Shown here: positions 123-6,748 of the stretch, piece by piece | How the letters are laid out: each line of letters begins with the position of its first letter | Position numbering within the stretch: the first letter of the stretch is position 1 | Origin: Candidatus Uhrbacteria bacterium RIFOXYB12_FULL_58_10 | GTDB taxonomy: Bacteria > Patescibacteriota > Patescibacteriia > UBA9934 > GWF2-40-263 | Reading direction: 5' to 3' | Assembly: GCA_001791645.1 (NCBI GenBank) | Contig: MGFA01000010.1 | Location: 1 to 36,060, forward strand | DNA length: 36,060 nt | Position numbers and translations under genes: made by a program | The notes under the pieces: generated by a model | Databases searched by the model: none | Seen by the model: the letters and a program-made list of their open reading frames with translations, nothing else | Told to the model about the DNA's origin: nothing

Positions 123-2375
123 CTACTTGCAGGCCTCCTGCTCGGCGCGGGCGCGGGCGGAGAGCTTGGAGCAGTCCACGCCACGCTTCGTCACCGGCGC
201 GGCGGGCTTGGTGCTCGCGGCGGCTGGGGACACCGCGCTCACCGTCGCCTTTGGGGCCGGGTCCGCGGGCTTGGCCTCAGGCTTCTTCGCCGGCTCGTCG
301 GGAGCTGCGGCGGCCTCCATGACCTCCTTCATCTCGGCCTTCTCGCCTTCCTGGGCGAAATACAGTGCCTCGATGGAGGAGTACTCCTGGGGACCTTCAT
401 CGAGGAACCGGCCGAACAAGTGCTTTCGCACCGCGTAGCCGACTCCCGACGCGCAGCCACCGATCTCCTTCTCGACGTACCCGGGCAGGTCGATGTCCGT
501 CCCCTTCGGAACGCACACTTCCCCCACCGTGGCCGACTGAGCCCCAACCGCGCCGAGGATGTCCTCGACCCGGAACGCGCCGCCCGAGGGCGTGGCGATA
601 TACTTGACCTTGATCGTCTTTTCCTCTGTCTCGCCATCTTTGCCGCCCGGCTTCGGGACCTGCACCGTGATTTCCTGCTCCACCACGGCCACCTGGAAGG
701 CGATGTTCCCGTCCACGTACTGCTTGTACGCGAGCGGGCCGATGCCGATGACCGCGAGGGCCGCCGACACCGTGGCGAGCGTGCGGATGTTCCCGAGCGA
801 CAGCTTCTCGAGGAGATGGTGGATCTCCTCGCTGTCGTGTCCCCACCGCGCGCCGATGCGGTCGTACGCGATGAGCGCCAGGGCGATCACGGGGATCGTC
901 ACAAGGCGCACCAGGAATGTCGGGAAGCCGAACAGGATGCCCATGTCAGCGATAAGCATCGCTGTAACTCCAAGGCCGAACAAGTACGCGGTGATGTTCC
1001 GCGCGCTGTTGGCGAGCGACGGGCTGCCGTGCTCGTCGGCGTGCGGGTGGAAGATCCCGCCGAACACCCTGACGAGCCCCGCGACCGAGTACCACGGGAG
1101 CAGCCACAGCAGCGCCAGGATGGACCCGGCGAGCGTGAGCCCGACGTTCCAGTGCTGGTTCTGCCACCACCCGAATACGCCCGCGCCGTAGATGCCGACG
1201 ATCGGCACCGCGACGATGAAGTACGCGACCGGGATGCCGATCGCGAAGGCCGCGGCGGCCCAGGCGGCCAGTCCGCCGTGCTTGAGCGCGCGCTTCACGG
1301 CCTCGATGGCGCCGTGCGTGGCTTCGCGGGCCTTGTTGCCCGTGCCAAGTTCCGCTCCGCCCGGACCGTCGAACCACGCGCGCAGAAGCTTGGCGTCCGC
1401 GTTCTTGATCTCGAAGCACTGGTGCACTCCAGACTTCCTGGTGTCCACGAGTCGTGGGTCGATATCGTGGCAGACGATTGCGAGGGCATCGAAGTCGCCC
1501 TTGGCCGCGAGATCCTCGGAAAGGTCGATGAAGAGCCGGCCTTCGCGGTCGGTGCCGCTGTCCCTGCGGGCGGCGGCCACGAGCACGCGGCACATCTTCT
1601 CATCGGCGCGTACGCGAGCCCAGAAGCTCTGGGCCTTCGGCTGCGCCGCGCCATTGAGCCTCAGGCACTCCGGGCACACGTGCGGCTCGCCGTTGCCGGC
1701 CAGCGCGTCGAAGTCCCCCACCTGATAAGGGATGAGAGCTCCGGGGACGCGCGTGGTCTGCCGCGGCTGGCCGCGCTGCTGCTGGTTGCCACCCGTGGTC
1801 TGGGTGGTATCCGGATGCAGGAGGTCCCACCCACTGGTCATCTGCTGCCAGTGGGAACAGGCCTGCGGTCGGCCCTTGGCGTCGACGTCCATGCTCCCGT
1901 CCGCCGCGAGGCGGGCGAGGTGGACGACGCCAAGCGCGTCGCGAAACGCGTTGCCGAAGCGCCGAGCGACCTGCGCGCCGAGCGCGTCGATCTTCTGCTC
2001 GCGGTTCGGGTCGGACGCCGCGATGACGCCCTTCCCCACGCCGGCGAGGAAGTCGCCAAGGAACACCTGCGCCATCACGCGGGTCCCGGGGTCGAGACCG
2101 GGCATCAGTGCCGTTACCTTCCGCGCGATTGCCGCGGCGACGCCATGGTTCATGGCGTTGAGCCCGTGTTTTCCCCACCTGGAGTCAAGCCGCTTCAGCA
2201 GCTCGGTGAAGAACCGGATGCCCTTCACGTTCTCCGCGGTGATCTCCTTGACCACATCTTCGAGTGTCTCGCCAGCGACCGTCAGGCCGAGTGAGTGTGC
2301 CTTCGCGGCGTCGCCGTCCACGACGACGGAGATCAGGTCCCTTTCCGAAGGACCAGCGGCGGTTCGAGTTGCCAT
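123..2375 (-). CDS. Hypothetical multi-pass membrane protein with Ala/Pro-rich C-terminal tail
   Basis: ORF open over its length; start at MATRTAAGPSERD with GGAGAGGAATCC-ATG; several hydrophobic segments (AAAFAIGIPVAYFIVAVPIVGIYGAGVF, LTLAGSILALLWLLPWYSVAGLV, ITAYLFGLGVTAMLIADMGILFGF); own promoter and terminator. Confidence 0.8.
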   Translation of the reverse strand: MATRTAAGPSERDLISVVVDGDAAKAHSLGLTVAGETLEDVVKEITAENVKGIRFFTELLKRLDSRWGKHGLNAMNHGVAAAIARKVTALMPGLDPGTRVMAQVFLGDFLAGVGKGVIAASDPNREQKIDALGAQVARRFGNAFRDALGVVHLARLAADGSMDVDAKGRPQACSHWQQMTSGWDLLHPDTTQTTGGNQQQRGQPRQTTRVPGALIPYQVGDFDALAGNGEPHVCPECLRLNGAAQPKAQSFWARVRADEKMCRVLVAAARRDSGTDREGRLFIDLSEDLAAKGDFDALAIVCHDIDPRLVDTRKSGVHQCFEIKNADAKLLRAWFDGPGGAELGTGNKAREATHGAIEAVKRALKHGGLAAWAAAAFAIGIPVAYFIVAVPIVGIYGAGVFGWWQNQHWNVGLTLAGSILALLWLLPWYSVAGLVRVFGGIFHPHADEHGSPSLANSARNITAYLFGLGVTAMLIADMGILFGFPTFLVRLVTIPVIALALIAYDRIGARWGHDSEEIHHLLEKLSLGNIRTLATVSAALAVIGIGPLAYKQYVDGNIAFQVAVVEQEITVQVPKPGGKDGETEEKTIKVKYIATPSGGAFRVEDILGAVGAQSATVGEVCVPKGTDIDLPGYVEKEIGGCASGVGYAVRKHLFGRFLDEGPQEYSSIEALYFAQEGEKAEMKEVMEAAAAPDEPAKKPEAKPADPAPKATVSAVSPAAASTKPAAPVTKRGVDCSKLSARARAEQEACK

Positions 2376-2385
2376 GGATTCCTCT

Positions 2386-2521
2386 CCGTGTGCGGCACGA
2401 GGCCGCGGTGATATTTCTGAAAAGACCGAATGCCTGCGCTCCCGTTTCCCCGAACCATTCCGGAGACAACGAAAAACGCAAGCAAGATGTCTCCCATTTG
2501 AAGCCCGAAGGCCGCACACGG
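2386..2521 (-). promoter_or_regulatory. Structured 5' leader RNA closed by a perfect 11-bp helix
   Basis: CCGTGTGCGGC (2521-2511 on minus) pairs with GCCGCACACGG (2396-2386); internal GGAGACA/TGTCTCC helix; lies between promoter and SD. Confidence 0.5.
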
Positions 2522-2530
2522 AAGAGCGTA

Positions 2531-2559
2531 TGATTACCACAAAAAAGCCGAAATGTCAA
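2531..2559 (-). promoter_or_regulatory. Sigma70-type promoter TTGACA-N17-TAATCA
   Basis: Minus strand -35 at 2559-2554, -10 at 2536-2531. Confidence 0.55.
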
Positions 2560-2593: not shown

Positions 2594-3733
2594 TTAGCGA
2601 AGGGAAAGCGTTTCGGGTGCCAACCCGTCCCGAATGGCGTTGGTAACCTGGGTCCGATCCCCGGTGCGGCCCACCATGGTCGCGCCCACCACCTTTCCAG
2701 CGCGCACGAACAGCTGCGTGACACCGCCGGCCGCGCGACTGCCAACTATGCGGATCTCATCCGCGAACGCGCGATCCGTGTCTCCGACCCCGATGATATC
2801 GAGCCCCGCGAGGTTGGTGGCATACGCCGAGACATTGCGAAATTCCTCCGGCTTCCCTGCCATGTTGCGCGCCGCGACGCGGCCCTGCATCACCGCCGAC
2901 GGCCAGTTGCCCGCCATGAGCGTTCGTCCGACCACAAGGTCCTCGAACTCCGTCACGTCGCCCGCCGCGTACACGTCGCCAGCGCTCGTCTCGAGCCGCG
3001 CGCTCGTGACCACGCCCTTGTTCACCGCAATCCCCGCGTCGCGTATCCATGCGAGGTCCGGCTCAACGCCCACCCCGACGCCGACCACGTCCGCGTCCGT
3101 CGCTCCGACCGATTCCAACGTTTCGCTCCCGGGCCGGACGTCCGCGCCCACGGCGCGCAAATGGTCGCTCACGAGCTCGCCGCTGTCCGCGTCCAAAATC
3201 CGATGGAACATCCACGGCCCGCGAAACGCCGCGACCGTTGGCATGTGATGATACAAAAAGACATCGAGCAGTTCGCACGCGATGAAGCTTCCGCCGTACA
3301 CGATTCCCCGCCCGCCGGCCCGCGACCGCATCAGCGAAATCAGGTGCTCCGTGTCGCCGAGCGAATGGAAGTAACACACGTTCTCCCCCTCGTATGGAAG
3401 CGTGCGCGCCTCGCCTCCGGTCGCGAGAAGCAGCTTGTCATACGGCAGCTCGCGCCCATTCGAGAGCGCGACGTGCCTGTTCGTAACGTCTATCGCGTCG
3501 CAGCGCGTCCCGGGCATCCATTCAATGTTCTTTTCCGCGTACCACGTTTCCTTTTTCAAAAAAAGCTTCTCGCGAGGCACAAGCCCCTTGGCGTAGTGCG
3601 GCAGCAGGACGCGAGAATAAATGATCTCGTGGTCCTCGCCGACAAGCGTGATCTCGGCATCGGCGTCGAGCTTGCGCAACTCCTCGGCCGCGGTTGTCCC
3701 GGCGATCCCGCCGCCGATGACGACGTGCCTCAT
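2594..3733 (-). CDS. FAD-dependent NAD(P)-type oxidoreductase (ferredoxin/rubredoxin reductase-like)
   Basis: MRHVVIGGGIAGTTAAEEL dinucleotide-binding motif; DKLLLATGG; VYAAGDVTEF FAD motif. Confidence 0.85.
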   Translation of the reverse strand: MRHVVIGGGIAGTTAAEELRKLDADAEITLVGEDHEIIYSRVLLPHYAKGLVPREKLFLKKETWYAEKNIEWMPGTRCDAIDVTNRHVALSNGRELPYDKLLLATGGEARTLPYEGENVCYFHSLGDTEHLISLMRSRAGGRGIVYGGSFIACELLDVFLYHHMPTVAAFRGPWMFHRILDADSGELVSDHLRAVGADVRPGSETLESVGATDADVVGVGVGVEPDLAWIRDAGIAVNKGVVTSARLETSAGDVYAAGDVTEFEDLVVGRTLMAGNWPSAVMQGRVAARNMAGKPEEFRNVSAYATNLAGLDIIGVGDTDRAFADEIRIVGSRAAGGVTQLFVRAGKVVGATMVGRTGDRTQVTNAIRDGLAPETLSLR

Positions 3734-3996
3734 ACGTCCGGAAAGAGCTGCGCTCCCTCCTCGTCGTAAATGAAAATCGCGAGCGTCGGGCACGACTGGG
3801 CTGCCATGATGATATTTTCCTTTTCTTCTTCCGTCACCTCCATCGTGCGCTCGTACGTCCGAGGGGTCGGCTCCGTGCCGTGATCGAGAACGTATGCCTT
3901 GTTCTCGTCGTTGAGCTGAAAGGTTTCCGGGGCGATGGTCACGCATGACGCCGCGCCAATGCAAAGATCGGGATCGACTTTGATCGTCAGTTTCAT
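3730..3996 (-). CDS. Ferredoxin (short Fe-S type)
   Basis: MKLTIKVDPDLCIGAASCVTIAPETFQL...AAQSCPTLAIFIYD; CxxxxxC...C(P) pattern; 4-nt overlap with the reductase gene. Confidence 0.85.
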   Translation of the reverse strand: MKLTIKVDPDLCIGAASCVTIAPETFQLNDENKAYVLDHGTEPTPRTYERTMEVTEEEKENIIMAAQSCPTLAIFIYDEEGAQLFPDV

Positions 3997-3997
3997 A

Positions 3998-4222
3998 TTA
4001 TTCCTCGATGAATTCAACCACAGTGTACTCCGAACAGTGCTCCGCGACGAGGTCTGCCAGCCCTTCCTTGTACGAGGCCGAGCAGCCGCATCCACCGCAA
4101 AATCCCTCGAGGCGGAACACGATCTTCGGCGCGTCACTTGATGCGACGCCGACGGAGCGGTTGGCCGAATCAAGCACGGGCTTGAGCGATGCGAGCTGAT
4201 CGAGCAAATCTTGATAGGCCAT
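3998..4222 (-). CDS. NifU C-terminal domain-like Fe-S scaffold
   Basis: 74 aa with GFCGGCGCSAS (CxxC of the NifU-C type); sits in the Fe-S operon. Confidence 0.7.
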   Translation of the reverse strand: MAYQDLLDQLASLKPVLDSANRSVGVASSDAPKIVFRLEGFCGGCGCSASYKEGLADLVAEHCSEYTVVEFIEE

Positions 4223-4223
4223 A

Positions 4224-4901
4224 TTAGGCGCCGAAATATTTTTCCTTATAAAATCGGATGAGCTCTTCTACCGCTGGCAGCACGCCCGGATTGCCCGTGC
4301 CGACCTTGGTCTTTGCCTGCACGGCCTCGAGGGTGAGCGCACCGTCGAGCACGGCCTCCTCGATGTCGTGGTCGGTCACCTTCGAAACCGGGTCGATGAC
4401 GCGGGAGGCTTCCACCACGATCTTGTCGACCTGTCCCGTGCGGCGGTAAAAGTCGTTGATCGCGTCGCGCAGCGCCTTGTCGCACAGCACCGAGCAGTGG
4501 AACTTGCGCGCTGGCAGGCCGCCAAGCCTGTCCATGATGTCCTGCGGGCGGATCTTGCGCGCCTCCTCGAGCGTCATGCCGCCGTTTTCCGTCACCATTT
4601 CGGACGCCATCGACGTGGACGCGATCGCGCTGCCGCACCCGAACGTCTTCCAACGGAACTCCCGGATACGCTCGGTTTTCAGGTCTACCTTCATCCAGAC
4701 GCGCAGCTCGTCGCCGCACGCCGGCGAACCGACCTTTCCGACCGCGTTATATTGCGCCGGGTCCGCGTCCTCCATCATGAAGTTGCGCGGATGGAAAAAA
4801 TGGTCCTTAACCGTGTCCGTGTAAAACCAAGACTTGCCGCCGTCCTTGGTGGTGACGTCGCCCTGGGTTCCCGCGACCGGCGTTTGCTTGTGATCAGACA
4901 T
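4224..4901 (-). CDS. IscU/NifU N-terminal-like iron-sulfur cluster scaffold
   Basis: HFFHPRN...GKVGSPACGDELRVWMKVD...FGCGSAIASTSMASEM...HCSVLCDKALRDAI; 8-nt overlap with nifS. Confidence 0.9.
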   Translation of the reverse strand: MSDHKQTPVAGTQGDVTTKDGGKSWFYTDTVKDHFFHPRNFMMEDADPAQYNAVGKVGSPACGDELRVWMKVDLKTERIREFRWKTFGCGSAIASTSMASEMVTENGGMTLEEARKIRPQDIMDRLGGLPARKFHCSVLCDKALRDAINDFYRRTGQVDKIVVEASRVIDPVSKVTDHDIEEAVLDGALTLEAVQAKTKVGTGNPGVLPAVEELIRFYKEKYFGA

Positions 4902-6093
4902 AGTATTTCGGATCCACGCGCACCGGGCTGATGGCGCGCAGTTTCTCAACGAGGGGAGGAAGGACGTCGAGCACGTACTCCACGTCCTGCGCGCGCGTGG
5001 CGTGGCCGAGAGAAAAGCGAATGGATCCGTGCGCGACCTCGTATGGCAGACCGAGCGACAGGATGACATGCGACGGATCAAGGGTCGTAGACGTGCAGGC
5101 GGACCCCGTGGACGCGTAAATGCCGGCGGCGTCGAGATATAGAATAAGCGCCTCGCCCTCGATGTCCACGAAAGAAACGTTCACGTTGTTTGGAAGACGC
5201 TTGGTCGCGTGGCCGTTCAGGCGCACCTTCGGCACGCGCTGGCGGATTCCCTCGATCAATCGGTCACGCAACGCCGTGAGCCGTTCCGACTCGCGAACGC
5301 GATTTTCCTGCACGAGCTCGAGCGCCTTCGCCATGCCGATAATCCCGGCGACGTTCTCGGTTCCAGGCCTGAGGCCCCGTTCCTGCGAACCGCCAAACTG
5401 GAGCGGTTGGAGCTTGATGCCTCGACGAACGTACAGAGCACCGATTCCCTTGGGGCCATACATCTTGCCCCCGTTCAACGTCATCAAATCCACGTGAAGT
5501 TTCTCCACGTCGAGATCAAGAAAGCCCGTGGCCTGGCACGCGTCGGTGTGAAAAACGGGAAACGCCTTCTTTTCCGCGGCACGATACTTTTGAATCGCGT
5601 TCCCGATCTCCCCGATAGGCTGAATCGTACCGATTTCGTTGTTCGCGTACATGACCGAGATAAGAATCGTATCCGGGCGAATCGCGGACATCACCTGGTC
5701 GGTCGTAATCAGGCCGTCGTGATCCGGCACAAGATATGCCACCTCGAACCCCTCCTTTTTTTCCAAATGCATCGCGGCCTCCAGCACCGCATGATGCTCA
5801 AACGCGGCCACCACGAGATGTTTCCCGGTTCCGGCATTTGCCCGACAGAATCCGAGCACCGCGAGATTGTCCGATTCCGTACCGCCGGATGTGAACAGGA
5901 TTTCATCCGCGCGCACGTGCAGCACCTTCGCCATACGCTCGCGCGCGTTATCGAGCGCGTCCTTGGCCTCCTTCCCAACCGAATGAAAGCTCGACGGATT
6001 GCCGCACGCGTGGCCGAGATACGGCAACATGGCCTCGAGGACGCGAGGGTCGAGCGGCGTGGTCGCGGCATGGTCAAGGTAAACATGTTCCAC
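4894..6093 (-). CDS. nifS: Cysteine desulfurase
   Basis: MEHVYLDHAATTPLDPRVLEAM; HTDACQATG; NGGKMYGPKGIGALYVRRG; GSACTS. Confidence 0.95.
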   Translation of the reverse strand: MEHVYLDHAATTPLDPRVLEAMLPYLGHACGNPSSFHSVGKEAKDALDNARERMAKVLHVRADEILFTSGGTESDNLAVLGFCRANAGTGKHLVVAAFEHHAVLEAAMHLEKKEGFEVAYLVPDHDGLITTDQVMSAIRPDTILISVMYANNEIGTIQPIGEIGNAIQKYRAAEKKAFPVFHTDACQATGFLDLDVEKLHVDLMTLNGGKMYGPKGIGALYVRRGIKLQPLQFGGSQERGLRPGTENVAGIIGMAKALELVQENRVRESERLTALRDRLIEGIRQRVPKVRLNGHATKRLPNNVNVSFVDIEGEALILYLDAAGIYASTGSACTSTTLDPSHVILSLGLPYEVAHGSIRFSLGHATRAQDVEYVLDVLPPLVEKLRAISPVRVDPKYYV

Positions 6094-6102
6094 AGTGGAG
6101 GG

Positions 6103-6131
6103 AATCTACCAGCAAATCGATCTCCTGACAA
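6103..6131 (-). promoter_or_regulatory. Promoter TTGTCA-N17-TAGATT for the Fe-S operon
   Basis: Minus strand -35 6131-6126, -10 6108-6103, immediately upstream of nifS. Confidence 0.5.
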
Positions 6132-6143
6132 GCCTCGTGCCTC

Positions 6144-6169
6144 AAAAAAAAGAGGCCTGCCGCGCAGGC
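6144..6169 (-). terminator. Rho-independent terminator of the VIT1-like gene
   Basis: Minus strand GCCTGC-GCG-GCAGGC-CTCTTTTTTTT. Confidence 0.8.
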
Positions 6170-6187
6170 ATCCCGGCTCTCTCTGGC

Positions 6188-6748
6188 CTACATTCCCGGA
6201 ACGACTCCATAATAGGCTCCGACCAGGCGGCCGATGACAAACCCGATCGCGGCCGCGCTGAGCGAAATGACCGCCATCTGCGCGCCACCGCGCCAAGGAG
6301 AACGTTTCGAAAACGAAGCCGACCACGCGCCAAGCGCGAACAGACAAAACGCGGTAAGAATAATGGACGGCGCGTAGGCATTTCTGATCGGGAGAAAAAA
6401 ATATGGGGCAAGCGGGACGAATCCGCCAAGCACGTAGAAAACCCCCATGACCGCCGCGGACCGAATGAGATGCGTGTGCGCTCCAGTCGCCGCGACCTTC
6501 CCTTCTTCGCGAAGCACCTCGCGCTCGGCCTCCGTCGCGGACTTGTTCGATAGATAGCTTCCCGCGGCCATGGAAACGGCCTCCACGGCCACGATCACGA
6601 GGCCGGACATGATGACGATATACGTGCTATCCGCGCCGGCCGCGATGCCGGTTACCGCGCCAAGCGTAGACACGAAGCTGTCCTCGAGCCCGAATACGAT
6701 CTCCCGCATGCTTTCCGCGACCTCTCGACGCCATTTGCTCCCATTCAT
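6188..6748 (-). CDS. VIT1/CCC1-family transporter
   Basis: REIVFGLEDSFVSTLGAVTGIAAG and VEAVSMAAGSYLSNKSATEAEREV, characteristic of VIT1/CCC1 proteins. Confidence 0.85.
   Translation of the reverse strand: MNGSKWRREVAESMREIVFGLEDSFVSTLGAVTGIAAGADSTYIVIMSGLVIVAVEAVSMAAGSYLSNKSATEAEREVLREEGKVAATGAHTHLIRSAAVMGVFYVLGGFVPLAPYFFLPIRNAYAPSIILTAFCLFALGAWSASFSKRSPWRGGAQMAVISLSAAAIGFVIGRLVGAYYGVVPGM

Follow-up and report, generated by a model that had tools for sequence, protein, structure and literature searches.

In the window analysed here, a 36,060-nt stretch of the genome of Candidatus Uhrbacteria bacterium RIFOXYB12_FULL_58_10, a membrane-protein gene is preceded by a structured 5' leader that is apparently a conserved and so far unrecorded cis-regulatory RNA; no earlier report of the element was found in the open-licence literature. 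Candidatus Uhrbacteria are ultra-small bacteria, and how Patescibacteria regulate their genes is, to our knowledge, poorly understood. The leader combines an end-to-end helix (P1), a 5'-terminal hairpin (H5) and a hairpin just upstream of the Shine-Dalgarno sequence (SD) (H3), and comparison of homologous leaders tips the balance, if not by much, towards a bistable cis-acting RNA that would control translation of the membrane protein. A leader with two exclusive, separately supported folds offers a concrete, testable regulatory element for Patescibacteria, and, given the strand-swap evidence, its mechanism can be checked with a few compensatory mutants.

Layout of the leader in the window

The 156-nt minus strand folds at -69.4 kcal/mol (z -4.3), a value equalled by none of 200 shuffles, and the pairs of P1 have ensemble probabilities of 0.99-1.0. 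An earlier note on this DNA had described an 11-bp helix, and CCGTGTGCGGC (2521-2511, minus) is indeed perfectly complementary to GCCGCACACGG (2396-2386), the closing helix adjoining the SD. Its view of a multi-helix structured 5' leader is likewise borne out, by the z-score of the fold and by pairing that is kept in homologues. The interior was drawn differently there: GGAGAC (about 2494-2489), assigned to a GGAGACA/TGTCTCC helix, pairs instead with GGTCTTTT (2427-2420), in homologues too, while TGTCTCC (2468-2462) and the GGAATG helix lie within an insertion hairpin that homologues lack, and the three-way-junction layout is unsupported. Beyond what that note described, the 5' strand has a second partner just downstream (in H5), with support at least equal to that of the first, and the SD-proximal strand also has a second partner (in H3). 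The inner parts recurring across homologues are H5, P3, a G-poor linker and H3 (Table 1).

Table 1. Features of the leader and of its surroundings in the window
Feature	Position	Strand	Remarks
Upstream block	2594..6745	-	Pyr_redox_2 oxidoreductase, ferredoxin, small protein, NifU_N, cysteine desulfurase, VIT1
Promoter	2530..2559	-	TTGACA 2559-2554 and TAATCA/AATCAT about 2536-2530; 17-18 nt spacing; consensus match
5e, CUCUUCC	2520..2526	-	predicted first transcribed bases; partner e (H5), or partly the SD side, extending P1
Strand a, GUGUGCGGC	2511..2519	-	P1 5' strand and part of the H5 5' arm
Strand b, GGGCUUC	2500..2506	-	partner of a within H5
H5, 5'-terminal hairpin	2490..2525	-	-16.8 kcal/mol in the first 48 nt of the window leader
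Strand e, GGGAGAC	2489..2495	-	H5 3' arm or P3 5' strand
Insertion hairpin within P3	about 2431..2484	-	window-specific
P3 3' strand, GGUCUUUUC	2419..2427	-	partner 2495-2489
Linker, CAGAAAUAUCACC	2407..2419	-	G-poor
H3 hairpin, GCGGC-CUCGU-GCCGC	2392..2406	-	strands c and d; incompatible with the top of P1
Strand d, GCCGCACAC	2388..2396	-	P1 3' strand; H3 uses the same strand
Shine-Dalgarno, GGAGAGG	2381..2387	-	start codon ATG at 2375
Membrane-protein gene	123..2375	-	750 aa; N-terminal half soluble; hydrophobic segments from about residue 377; C735, C749

The position of the promoter places the predicted +1 near 2526-2522, so that transcription would begin at about the first base of the end-to-end helix. 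A -35/-10 pair can be selected upstream of all 31 homologous leaders, with a 17-nt spacer in 30 and 18 nt in the window, although its occurrence is partly built in by the scoring rule (-35 with at least 5/6 matches to TTGACA, spacer of 16-18, best -10). The -35 box is TTGACA in 29 leaders and TTGACT in two, and the -10 boxes scatter around TATAAT, that of the window being AATCAT. In most leaders the implied +1 lies within a few bases of a conserved UUCUUC/CUCUUC, a segment that differs in the g2 leaders L123 and L130. A second promoter-like site (TTGACA-17-TATGGT, 58-30, minus) is found in the window 3' of the membrane-protein gene.

An Rfam search over 2360-2570 at gathering and relaxed thresholds gave nothing near a gathering score, and the sole gathering match in the whole window is a tRNA gene (12311-12240, minus). 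By eye, in alignment A5 and the leaders, the best-conserved bases are mainly those of the helix strands, with no unpaired aptamer-like core seen, and a GCC-AAAC sequence in H5 is present in some genera only.

Distribution among related genomes

In the window's family (13 genera of Ca. Uhrbacteria), 31 of the 43 genomes carry the element, giving 31 leaders, always as one copy per genome and always in front of a member of a single gene family. When 97 related genomes were searched with the protein, homologues turned up in the genus, with the same leader in their upstream regions; the set was extended to the family by a 5' pattern search and then by two covariance models, and two more leaders were found by inspecting the DNA that follows the neighbouring oxidoreductase gene. 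Each candidate was read together with its promoter and start codon to reach the final 31. As P1 is nearly palindromic, several raw model matches represent the same locus on the opposite strand; candidates L096 and L097 were set aside by eye. In 30 genomes of three sister families no convincing element was found, and in a sample of 383 genomes from the class, which took in known members of the family, the sole match outside the family (L118) sits by inspection in an MltG-like reading frame and was rejected as protein-coding. Only a few candidates per genome were scored in both of these broader searches, so that absence outside the family is not proven.

The layout varies within the family. In three of the 31 leaders (L108, L114 and L050, genus g4) the P1 5' strand GUGUGCGGC has moved to a place 3' of both H5 and an extra hairpin, and only H5 is kept at the 5' end. 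Reduced forms consist of H5 only (G036, G042, G033), of a different hairpin (G013) or of H3 only (G003); in the last (L005/L120) the promoter and gene are the same, the P1 5' strand and H5 are lost, and the GCGGC/GCCGC hairpin is kept. H5-only leaders with the same gene behind them are L121 and L124 (g12) and L127 (g4). A translated leader, that is, an N-terminal extension of the gene, was rejected, with an in-frame stop in 17 of the 31 leaders and lengths in all three classes modulo 3. An upstream ORF of 24 codons in the leader L006, with its stop overlapping the start codon (ATGA), is not conserved.

The homologous proteins, of about 670-830 aa, have a soluble N-terminal half and several hydrophobic segments, and their C-terminal Cys pair is nearly invariant in 24 sequences. 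Pfam revealed no family in common for the window protein and 23 homologues, and the phage records searched gave no match. The membrane protein is a divergent, fast-evolving one that is probably tightly controlled. The order of the upstream block is largely kept at homologous loci, and this neighbourhood suggests a link of the membrane protein to iron or redox. At L098-L113, about 4 kb 3' of the leader, the opposite strand encodes small membrane proteins with two helices, which by eye are TrbC/VirB2-type pilin-like.

Two exclusive folds and access to the Shine-Dalgarno sequence

The helices were assessed by comparing the pairing of each sequence with its own partner and with partners drawn from other sequences. 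For P1 in fixed windows (first 32 : last 42 nt), own partners pair better with z -6.0 and p 0.0002 (31 leaders), and p 0.003 when one leader per genus is used, so that the pairing whose absence from homologues the earlier note would have counted against its helix is conserved. For H5 (nt 1-22 : 23-50) the values are z -8.3 and p 0.0002 in a slightly different set (32 leaders against 31 for P1; 12 genera), and H5 is the most strongly supported helix across homologues. Both effects are gone with reversed windows (z +1.5 and +1.4) and with shuffled 3' windows (mean z -0.2). The majority of leaders came from P1-containing models, which biases the set in favour of P1; in the ten leaders found without a P1 model, via protein homology, 5' pattern or gene order, P1 still gives z -3.1 (p 0.004) and H5 z -2.7 (p 0.005).

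Hand-marked strands, which weigh less because they were chosen with the pairs known and lean towards pairing, gave z -6.2 for a:d, -8.1 for c:d, -4.7 for a:b and -6.4 for 5e:e, while the controls a:c and 5e:d gave no own-partner signal. Among the same hand-marked segments, no covariation is seen between the CU-rich 5e and the SD (p 0.98), and this pairing could be generic CU/GA complementarity. In the columns of alignment A5, 92% of cells are paired for P1 and 95% for H3 despite their common strand d, and leaders lacking the top P1 pair a9:d1 mostly keep the H3 pair c5:d1. Moreover, all three strands change in concert, as in L021 (a GCAGC, c GCAGC, d GCUGC), L130 (a GCGGGA, c GCGGG, d UCCCGC) and L123 (a GCGGAUC, c GCGGA, d GAUCCGC).

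H5 and P1 are mutually exclusive at their common 5' strand, as are H3 and upper P1 at their common 3' strand, d. Forcing H3 costs 0-8.5 kcal/mol relative to the P1 fold in most leaders, and in L037, L044 and L046 the forced H3 fold is the one of lower energy. In nearly all leaders the first ~45 nt fold into a single long hairpin, at -12 to -22 kcal/mol (the weakest, L053, at -8.4 kcal/mol in the first 48 nt), and H5 should therefore form first during transcription. Lower P1, the inner H5 stem, P3 and H3 could also form together in the modelled structures, and in such a mixed form the SD is predicted to remain paired in many leaders.

The modelled unpaired probability of the best purine SD 5-mer has a median of 0.12 and a mean of 0.21 over the 31 leaders, and is 0.04 in the window leader at 37 °C. 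The leaders lie below 25 neighbouring control genes (median 0.40; Mann-Whitney p 8e-4), an approximate comparison in that the folded stretch took in a fixed 100 nt upstream for the controls but ran from the predicted +1 for the leaders. Counting against a switch, the SD is more than 0.5 unpaired in six leaders (L003, L050, L108, L114, L123, L130), and forcing H3 still leaves it paired in many leaders, that of the window among them, since H3 and the lower part of P1 are compatible.

Explanations and known systems

As the closing helix of a conserved leader can reach the SD, translational control, which the earlier note had proposed, is probable. The reading we favour by a little, a bistable leader, would work as follows. 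In an ON state, the first ~45 nt would form H5 (5e:e and a:b) while being made, and d would pair with c in H3, so that the end-to-end helix is absent; in an OFF state, strand a would leave H5 and pair with d in P1, P3 would form, and the SD would be held beside or inside the closing helix. The trigger might be a ligand, a protein, the ribosome or simply slow refolding. The exclusive helices are backed by the homologous sequences; that both states occur and set translation, and which of them is ON and which OFF, we infer from these pairings. The effect on the SD is modelled, with H3 alone leaving it paired in many leaders, and the H5-only leaders L121, L124 and L127 and the H3-only G003 count against a switch. 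The temperature response also suggested in the earlier note is unlikely: P1 melting on warming to free the SD would suit an SD at the base of the closing helix, but the modelled mean SD unpaired probability rises just from 0.15 at 15 °C to 0.34 at 70 °C, and an RNA thermometer is very improbable.

A static leader, in which H5 would shield the 5' end from decay, the hairpin-linker-hairpin arrangement would serve as a ribosome standby site and P1 would be secondary, is unlikely, yet the most credible of the other readings. It accords with H5 being the best-supported helix and persisting without P1 and H3 (L121, L124, L127), with a linker of just 2% G (23 leaders; hand-marked segments) and with structured standby sites being an established mechanism (PMC3936740), but not with the own-partner specificity of P1 across genera, and SD occlusion above that of control genes is unneeded by a purely static open leader. 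Autoregulation, with the soluble N-terminal half of the membrane protein, or another protein, holding one state, seems rather doubtful: one copy per genome before one gene family only is as found in autoregulatory leaders, and the conserved features are mostly helices, but Pfam finds no known domain in the protein and an AlphaFold2 model from four sequences is unusable (pLDDT 37). We regard as slightly more doubtful still a new Patescibacteria riboswitch class that would sense iron, redox state or an Fe-S-related metabolite and set the level of the membrane protein, encoded beside a VIT1 transporter and the Fe-S assembly block. Transcription attenuation, with H5 and a U-rich tract forming an intrinsic terminator or pause site, is improbable. 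At least five U in the 8 nt after H5 are found in 15 of 23 leaders, and H5 reaches -15 to -22 kcal/mol in most; the tract is absent, however, in eight of the 23, including the window (4 U) and its relative L032, and is thus not in all members. As strand d is made only once RNA polymerase has passed H5, P1 cannot act as an antiterminator, and attenuation as a P1-driven switch fails.

Compared with known systems, the favoured bistable leader most resembles translational riboswitches, in that a common strand has two partners and one fold would occlude the SD, and in its place at the mRNA 5' end directly before the start codon; like riboswitches, it is a conserved structured 5' UTR RNA with covariation support. 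Unlike them, it has no Rfam match and no aptamer-like conserved unpaired core was seen; it belongs to one gene family in one bacterial family, and it starts at the predicted +1. With structured ribosome standby sites (PMC3936740) it shares hairpins and, ahead of the SD, an unpaired linker poor in G, but its two ends, 5' and 3', pair with one another as well, with own-partner specificity. The yjdF motif, an orphan riboswitch candidate tied to one gene of unknown function (PMC4793209), differs in host group and gene, its sequences having been compared here through the Rfam search only, and is alike in accompanying essentially a single gene of unknown function.
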